The translations under genes were made by a program, and so were the position numbers. This document shows, piece by piece, positions 29,229 through 43,586 of a stretch of 64,000 nt of DNA (position 1 is its first letter; each line of letters begins with the position of its first letter). The stretch comes from Alphaproteobacteria bacterium (lineage in GTDB: Bacteria > Pseudomonadota > Alphaproteobacteria > Rs-D84). The DNA is taken from NCBI GenBank assembly GCA_009777955.1, contig WRKW01000003.1, positions 1-64,000 of the forward strand. Reading direction: 5' to 3'. The notes beneath the pieces were generated by a model that saw nothing but the letters and a program-made list of their open reading frames with translations, searched no databases and was not told where the DNA came from.

Positions 29229-29470
29229 ATCGTGTCATTGCGGTTTAATGTCATTGCGAGTCACGCCGTCAGGCGGACGAAGCAATCTTTTCCCAAAGGG
29301 GAATTATAAGAATTCCATTGTCTGGAAAGATTGCTTCGCGGTCTTTGACCGCTCGCAATGACACAAAATGTTGGAAAAGATTGCTTCGCTGTCTTCGACC
29401 ACTCGCAATGACACGAAATGTCTGAAAAGATTGCTTCGTCCGCCTGGCGGCGTGACTCGCAATGACCACT
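29229..29470. repeat. Second array of TCATTGCGAG-type repeats
   Basis: Same repeat family as 72-356, with forward units near 29234 and 29251 and inverted units near 29351, 29401 and 29455. It ends 10 bp short of the stop codon of the variable exported protein, so both arrays in the window flank members of that family. Confidence 0.85.
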
Positions 29471-29480
29471 CGCCATAACA

Positions 29481-29987
29481 TCAAAGGCCGAGACCCGCAA
29501 ACAGCGCCGACCGGAAGTCGGAACCGGAATCGTACAGGGCGCTGAACGCGCAATAGCGCGCGCAGTTAGACGCGCAATCGGACGGAGCGCTGTAGCCGTA
29601 CAGGAAAACCCAAGCCGACGAAGCGACACTAAACCCAGGAATGCTTGTCAGCTTACACCAACATCTATTTCCGCTGTCGGCAACAGGATTTCCAATATTA
29701 AGGTATGTTCCGCTTGTGCTTGAACACAGGCTTGTTCCACTGAACTCTGATACATTACTTCCAGTACAACTTGCTACTCTCCAATCGCCAAGGGACAGGT
29801 TGGTACAATCACGATTTGTGCCACTACCACTAGTGCCGTTAGCAGGACACTGGGTGTAACTACCGCAACTACTCGGGCTATTGGGTTTCGGCACACATGC
29901 CACAGCGGCAATAGACCCATGCAATGGGATTATCGTTAATACAGCAAGGATGCTTGTTAGCTTTATAGTTTTGTTAAATGTATTCAT
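29481..29987 (-). CDS. Exported DGR target protein (variable protein A)
   Basis: A 168-residue protein with a signal peptide (residues 1-30) and a Cys-rich mature part. It is a close paralogue of the gene at 42721. The last 60 nt before the variable block are identical to that copy, then 25 codons (nt 29603 down to about 29529) differ at 18 positions, all first or second codon positions, then the FAGLGL end is identical again. Compared with the template-like repeat at 43373, most differing sites carry adenine in the template. No lectin fold could be recognised. The start at 29987 has GGAGAG upstream and the family promoter at 30015-30043. Confidence 0.85.
   Translation of the reverse strand: MNTFNKTIKLTSILAVLTIIPLHGSIAAVACVPKPNSPSSCGSYTQCPANGTSGSGTNRDCTNLSLGDWRVASCTGSNVSEFSGTSLCSSTSGTYLNIGNPVADSGNRCWCKLTSIPGFSVASSAWVFLYGYSAPSDCASNCARYCAFSALYDSGSDFRSALFAGLGL
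29529..29603 (-). other. Variable region of protein A
   Basis: Hypervariable 75-nt block of codons mostly of the NNC or NNT form (CTG TAC GGC TAC AGC GCT at its start), directly after GGCTTGGGTTTTC. Length differs by two codons from the block in protein B just downstream of it, so A and B probably used different templates. Confidence 0.75.
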
Positions 29988-42639: not shown

Positions 42640-42693
42640 TCTAATTTACATGACTAAATACAAATTGACCTTTGTCATGGTATATGGTATAAT
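42640..42693 (+). promoter_or_regulatory. Promoter of variable protein B
   Basis: TTGACC (42665-42670), 17 bp, TATAAT (42688-42693). Identical in layout to the promoters at 1-29 and 30015-30043, with homology extending about 25 bp upstream of the -35 box. Confidence 0.9.
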
Positions 42694-42720: not shown

Positions 42721-43224
42721 ATGAATACATTTAACAAAACAATAAAGATAACAAGCATCCTTGCTGTATTAACGATAATCCCATTGCATGGGTCTATTGC
42801 CGCCGTTGCGTGTGTGCCGAAACCTAATAGCCCGAGCAGTTGTCCATGGAGTGATGCCACCTATTGTTCCGCCCTTGGTATTGATGGTTATAATAGTAAT
42901 GATTGTAATAACCTATCCCTTGGGGATTGGAAATTAACGAATTGTACGGGTAGTAATGTATCAGAGTTCAGCGGAACAAGTTTGTGTTCAAGCACAAGCG
43001 GAACTACCCCTAACTTTGGTAACCCTGTTGCAGACAGCAGAAGCAACTGTTGGTGTAAGCTGACAAGCATTCCTGGGTTTAGTGTCGCTTCGTCGGCTTG
43101 GGTTTTCATGTCCGACTTCGGCGGTCCGTCCGGTTGCGCGATTTACTGCGCGTACTATTGCGCGGACGGCGCCCGGAACGCTCCCGGCTTCCGGCCGGCG
43201 CTGTTTGCGGGTCTCGGCCTTTGA
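42721..43224 (+). CDS. Exported DGR target protein (variable protein B)
   Basis: A 167-residue paralogue of the protein at 29481: signal peptide (1-30), Cys-rich body with shared blocks NLSLGDW, EFSGTSLCSSTSG and LTSIPGFSVASSAWVF, a variable block, and the common end FRPALFAGLGL. AAGGAGAG lies 7 nt upstream of ATG. It is followed by two GC-rich hairpins, a template-repeat fragment and a reverse-transcriptase-like remnant, the gene order of diversity-generating retroelements. A separate middle segment (about residues 41-62) also differs between A and B, but by ordinary divergence. Confidence 0.88.
   Translation: MNTFNKTIKITSILAVLTIIPLHGSIAAVACVPKPNSPSSCPWSDATYCSALGIDGYNSNDCNNLSLGDWKLTNCTGSNVSEFSGTSLCSSTSGTTPNFGNPVADSRSNCWCKLTSIPGFSVASSAWVFMSDFGGPSGCAIYCAYYCADGARNAPGFRPALFAGLGL
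43108..43182 (+). other. Variable region of protein B
   Basis: A block beginning ATG TCC GAC TTC after GGCTTGGGTTTTC. Against protein A it has 18 substitutions in 25 codons, 8 at position 1, 10 at position 2 and none at position 3, while interspersed TGC, GCG and CCG TCC codons are unchanged. Confidence 0.8.
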
Positions 43225-43253
43225 TAACCGTATAACGTAAATAGGTGGGGGGT

Positions 43254-43301
43254 ATGGGGGGCGGGTACCCCGCCCCCCATAGAACCCCCCTTTTTGGGGG
43301 T
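43254..43301 (+). terminator. Two GC-rich hairpins after variable protein B
   Basis: Hairpin 1: ATGGGGGGCGGG (43254-43265), 3-nt loop, perfect complement (43269-43280). Hairpin 2: ACCCCC/GGGGGT around CTTTTT (43284-43301). They may end the target-gene transcript or be part of the template RNA. No T-run follows hairpin 1. Confidence 0.5.
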
Positions 43302-43372
43302 GTATAAAAAGAGGTTCCCGGTTAAGCGTCGGGAATTGGCAAATCGCCGTATGCAGTGGTGTTCGTTTGTCG

Positions 43373-43431
43373 GTGTCGCTTCGTCGGCTTGGGTTTTCAT
43401 GAACGACAACGGCGATCCGTCCAATTGCGCA
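43373..43431 (+). repeat. DGR template repeat (truncated)
   Basis: 26 bp identical to both target genes (43373-43398) followed by 33 bp that match their variable blocks (43399-43431). All ten adenines in those 33 bp are at sites where target A, target B or both differ from it; of the 23 other bases only one is. That is adenine-specific mutagenesis, the hallmark of DGR retrohoming. Similarity stops abruptly at 43431, about 50 bp short of the end of the variable blocks, so the 3' part was probably deleted. Confidence 0.8.
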
Positions 43432-43586
43432 AATCCACATTGAAAAGAATCAATCACAGGATTAAAAAAATCAACACGATACCCCTGTGTGTGCGACGCG
43501 GCGACCCGCATCTGGTCGGCCAGATTGCCGCGATGCGCGGTTGGGCAATGCACGCGCGAACGGATATAAAGATTCCGGCATTGTAA
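43431..43586 (+). pseudogene. Possible 3' remnant of a DGR reverse transcriptase
   Basis: Beginning where the template repeat breaks off, an open frame without a start encodes about 51 residues: a basic helix (LKRINHRIKKIN), then GQIAAMRGWAMHARTD and a stop. DGR reverse transcriptases end in a similar way, with a basic helix followed by a SWxGHxxHAxT-type segment. The canonical order target-template-RT fits, and a single deletion would explain both truncations. The similarity is from memory of the family and is short, so this is tentative. No polymerase motif (YxDD) is present. Confidence 0.4.

Follow-up and report, generated by a model that had tools for sequence, protein, structure and literature searches.

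Organization of the locus

The window, a stretch of 64,000 nt from contig WRKW01000003.1, belongs to an assembly of 1,019,126 bases in 14 contigs that is 98.6% complete. Its source falls within the order Rs-D84 (Enterousia), gut Alphaproteobacteria with reduced genomes (PMC12306168). On the forward strand lies a cassette that consists, in order, of a target gene (gene B), a leader with a hairpin, the first 58 bases of a template repeat, a probable deletion junction, and the final 51 codons of a reverse transcriptase (RT) of the diversity-generating retroelement (DGR) type.

Gene B (42721-43224, +) is preceded by a σ70-type promoter at 42665-42693 (+; TTGACC-17-TATAAT, 11/12 consensus matches). 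It encodes a protein of 167 aa that apparently has a signal peptide, and its 3' end is a variable repeat (43082-43224, +), delimited by alignment to an intact template on another contig, C5. Relative to this template, the repeat is changed at 18 adenine sites and at 2 other bases, a fixed difference at the first base aside. A paralogue, gene A, is present on the opposite strand (29481-29987, -) behind its own copy of the gene B promoter. When its variable repeat (29481-29629, -) is aligned to the C5 template, 17 adenine sites are changed and, apart from the fixed first-base difference, only one other base, a G, differs. The palindromic sequence GTCATTGCGAGTCACGCCGTCAGGCGGACGAAGCAATC recurs as a dispersed repeat at 29250-29478 of the window and at many contig ends, often downstream of target genes.

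Gene B is separated from the template leader by a region with a 13-bp GC-rich inverted repeat, TATGGGGGGCGGG/CCCGCCCCCCATA with the loop TAC (43253-43281, +), which is recognizable in the sequence and is also present at the start of contig C13. The leader itself contains a hairpin, TTCCCG..CGGGAA (43315-43335, +), and the motif AATCGCCGTATGCAGTGG (43342-43359, +), which resembles GCATYGCCGTAT.CAGTTG in the leaders of relatives. An Rfam search of the region gave no match. Next comes the template repeat, of which comparison with the intact C5 template identifies the 5' 58 bases (43373-43430, +); the 3' 85 bases are absent.

The initial annotation had described the first 26 bases of this repeat (43373-43398) as identical to both paralogues, and these were reproduced letter for letter. 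It had also placed all ten adenines of the following stretch, 43399-43431, at sites that differ in A, B, or both. The count stands as such (variation in at least one of the two paralogues at 10/10 adenines vs 1/23 other bases; Fisher P = 1.2e-7), but the tenth adenine, at 43431, is not a template base: it is the first base past the break, where the intact C5 template has G. When 43431 is left out, 9/9 adenines vs 1/23 other bases vary (P = 3.6e-7).

The reverse transcriptase remnant

Directly behind the truncated template, and on the same strand, lies a feature that was overlooked in the initial annotation, a 3' remnant of an RT gene of 51 codons plus a stop (43431-43586, +). A search with phrog_1423 gives a weak match at 43389-43556 (E = 0.05), while an HMM made from 24 DGR RTs of related genomes matches the remnant frame with E = 0.0012 among 5366 frames. 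The 51-residue peptide outscores every shuffled version that could be compared (5000 shuffles were made, of which roughly 3300 received a score), and it aligns to the C-terminal part of the RT (VGQIAAMRGW). Taken together, score, position, and strand suggest that 43431-43586 encodes the end of a DGR-type RT, its last ~51 residues, a short remnant with a modest score (16 bits).

The search for a DGR RT that the initial annotation had proposed found no intact gene in the 14-contig assembly, whether by RVT_1, by an alignment of the relatives' DGR RTs, or by phrog_1423; the C-terminal remnant is the only trace. The sole full-length RT in the genome is a UG13b-type enzyme on contig C2 (L002:7868-9253), a candidate DRT defence protein.

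Template copies and variable repeats in the genome

A DNA search with the template region detects about 27 places in the genome. Three are template copies: a full one at the end of C5, a shortened one near the start of C13, and the truncated one in the window; the remaining places are dispersed genes. The C5 copy (C5:69793-69936) is the full 143-base template, for which the initial annotation had proposed a search. The C13 copy has the same leader and is without one 12-base unit. With two additions from a protein search, the variable repeat can be read in 25 genes, and one more gene is cut by a contig end, so that the combined DNA and protein searches yield at least 25 target genes. In the aligned targets the variable repeat reaches the stop codon at the 3' end of the gene.

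Comparison of 23 aligned variable repeats with the C5 template reveals changes at 374/641 adenines and, excluding the fixed first-base difference, at 168/2631 other bases. By template base, change is seen at 58% of A, 7% of C, 9.7% of G (a value that includes the fixed first-base difference), and 4% of T. Genome-wide, the odds ratio for template adenines vs other bases is 20.5 (P = 2e-179). A spread of variation over all four template bases, which the initial annotation had named as a refutation, is not seen in the further copies. The initial annotation had offered two versions of its reading, a template repeat or its surviving 5' part; the second is borne out by the intact template on C5 and by adenine-specific change in more than 20 further copies.

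The peptide of the C5 template, NDNGDPSNCANNCANNCANNAQNNSDFRS, is rich in AAY codons, and most template codons are AAY (Asn). Because adenine change converts AAY to NNY, such a codon never becomes a stop codon. Eight variable repeats have only ~1-3 non-adenine differences from the template together with 12-18 adenine differences. The most diverged repeats have 10-22 non-adenine changes, which counts against the main reading. Non-adenine divergence is 0.10 in the variable repeat vs 0.11 just upstream, values that do not discriminate when dating the rewriting.

The target protein family

The short target genes of the genome have one architecture in common. Those with a readable start begin with MNTFN... 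and are preceded by the same promoter block, and homology upstream of the genes has an abrupt start about 75 bases ahead of the ATG. The proteins begin like a signal peptide, are rich in Cys towards the C terminus, and are apparently secreted. Searches of Pfam and PHROG and a profile search of PDB gave no match for the target protein, and an AlphaFold model of protein B, made from a 3-row alignment, has a mean pLDDT of 38.7 and is unusable for the fold. The family is a candidate hypervariable scaffold that differs from the known fold, the C-type lectin. A second variable block, with differences in length, is present in the middle of the protein (42840-42900 and the paralogues); no template for it was found.

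Cassettes and hairpins in relatives

Matches to the target family are present in 138/183 genomes of the bacterial family, and the DGR target family is, to judge from these matches, large and widespread there. A scan of genome contigs added one distant locus; scans of viral contigs gave no match. Related genomes that share the gene family contain DGR-type RTs, whose absence had been named in the initial annotation as evidence against a template repeat. Their canonical cassettes have the order target gene, homologous template, RT, and the RTs carry the DGR motif LGNQTSQ/IGNLTSQ. The distance from the W codon of the template to the GW motif of the RT is about 1.2-1.9 kb in relatives vs 149 bases in the window. 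Given this intact order, the window locus can be understood as such a cassette minus ~1.1-1.7 kb, and one internal deletion would be the simplest account of the template/RT junction at 43430/43431.

Among 40 near-complete family genomes with at least 5 target-like matches, 26, the present genome included, show no DGR-type RT; this is a hand count, and the RVT_1 matches of the remaining 14 were not typed in every genome. One of the family, G007 (a single contig of ~1.0 Mb; L098-L103, L200-L203), contains about 11 target-like genes in which the NNY codon pattern has decayed, and a search of it found neither an RVT_1 match nor a clean template. Its target genes are apparently an orphaned family. 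Isolates of Treponema denticola provide a precedent (PMC4891356), and, together with the 26/40 genomes, they make it plausible that the core is lost while the targets are retained.

Most of 17 leaders contain a hairpin a few tens of bases ahead of the template, with a mean best stem of 6.0 pairs vs 4.1 in shuffles. A MAFFT alignment of the leaders misregistered some stems, so the arms were registered by hand and joined via an artificial loop. In these hand-registered arms 10 cells are changed on both sides of the stem and 95.8% of cells are paired, figures that come from an input of clear-hairpin leaders only with an unreal loop sequence, two choices that favour structure. Sliding the partner arm destroys the pairing signal. 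The leader hairpin thus appears to covary across relatives, and it is retained in the window at 43315-43335.

Probable decay of the cassette and inferred origin of the variation

The window locus is very probably a decayed DGR cassette whose targets are the dispersed paralogous genes, and the decay is directly visible in a single locus, where a template that breaks off is joined to the remnant of an RT. In the mechanism that we infer for the variable repeats, an error-prone DGR RT would copy template RNA with misincorporation at adenines, and the resulting cDNA would then replace the 3' ends of the at least 25 dispersed paralogous genes. The window copy is probably dead as a donor, since both the 3' end of the template and the RT are missing. 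Other copies of the template, the full C5 copy for example, would have been the donors instead, and the RT that did the rewriting would either be lost by now or lie within unassembled sequence. Whether the system is extinct or active is thus a question within the main reading, with two answers.

How much weight the missing RT can bear depends on the assembly, in which 14/28 contig ends fall within target or template repeats. An RT could therefore be absent from the assembly or truly lost, and its absence is weak evidence. (Another assembly-breaking repeat, which appears to be coding sequence without relation to the DGR targets, is found at the starts of C7 and C11 and at the end of C1; L174, L178, L182.) For extinction in this lineage, in which the window deletion removed the RT and left 25 genes as a frozen family, the chances seem about even. 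The RT remnant in the window, with no further DGR RT found in the assembly, points this way, as do the many target-like genes of the single-contig G007 genome, which has no RVT_1 match, and the T. denticola isolates that have targets and neither RT nor template (PMC4891356). However, an intact template with its leader persists on C5, and several variable repeats appear freshly written.

That the system is still active, with an intact RT and perhaps an extra template left unassembled and all targets rewritten in trans from the C5 template, is a serious possibility, though we would not quite expect it; the window copy would then be just a dead duplicate among the template copies. An RT gene situated between target or template repeats would form a short contig that a bin easily misses, intact cassettes are kept in related species, and the rewriting looks recent in the eight variable repeats with few non-adenine differences. 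Against this, the assembly is nearly complete (98.6%), no RT lies behind the C5 or C13 template, and loss is common among the near-complete relatives (26/40). In addition, the broken ends of target genes, 7 on the upstream side and 7 on the downstream side, can be paired manually without leaving room for an RT.

It is very improbable that the UG13b-type RT on C2 drives the mutagenesis in trans, even though it is the sole full-length RT found: it matches the UG13b (DRT) model (E = 1e-117), reads GIPQDEVGDCSRQ in place of the DGR motif GNxTSQ, and lies on a separate contig with no template nearby, whereas the DGR RTs of relatives adjoin their templates. Least credible of all is an ordinary multigene family that duplication and selection have diversified and whose adenine pattern merely follows from Asn-rich codons; the central part of the protein does vary without a template having been found for that block, but an odds ratio of 20 at template adenines, mostly fixed third positions of the AAY codons, template copies separate from target genes, and the linkage of relatives' templates to an RT all argue against it.

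Comparison with known DGRs

The decayed cassette and its dispersed targets share features with several known systems. The DGR of T. denticola also has one template type and dispersed targets, up to seven of them, and some isolates are without RT and template (PMC4891356). Its targets are predicted FGE-sulfatase proteins, unlike the at least 25 targets here, which have no Pfam match and belong to a 1.0-Mb genome. Thiohalocapsa PB-PSB1 likewise has incomplete DGR loci and remote targets, for which action in trans has been proposed (PMC10907252). However, its nine loci and 15 targets fall into four classes tied to conflict systems, whereas the present genome has a single type of template, and its many promoters and signal peptides are nearly identical. 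As in cyanobacterial DGRs with remote variable proteins, paralogous targets are scattered through the genome, but the cyanobacterial targets combine C-type-lectin domains with varied N-terminal domains (PMC7517822), in contrast to the one shared architecture seen here.

The number of targets was considered as a possible record; this was dropped, as a survey includes DGRs with dozens of repeat copies, although these are atypical (PMC6642488). A large metagenome survey of DGRs searched beside the RT and says that remote targets are missed (PMC8144416). It is conceivable, if rather unlikely, that in a family of ~1-Mb genomes, possibly the Rs-D84 gut symbionts, a DGR acts as a genome-wide variation system, in which many separately promoted, secreted Cys-rich proteins with a non-C-type-lectin scaffold would be rewritten in trans from RT-less templates that multiplied with the targets, as cassettes repeatedly decayed and were renewed. 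The at least 25 dispersed genes served by one template type outnumber the 7 targets reported for T. denticola and the 15 for PB-PSB1.
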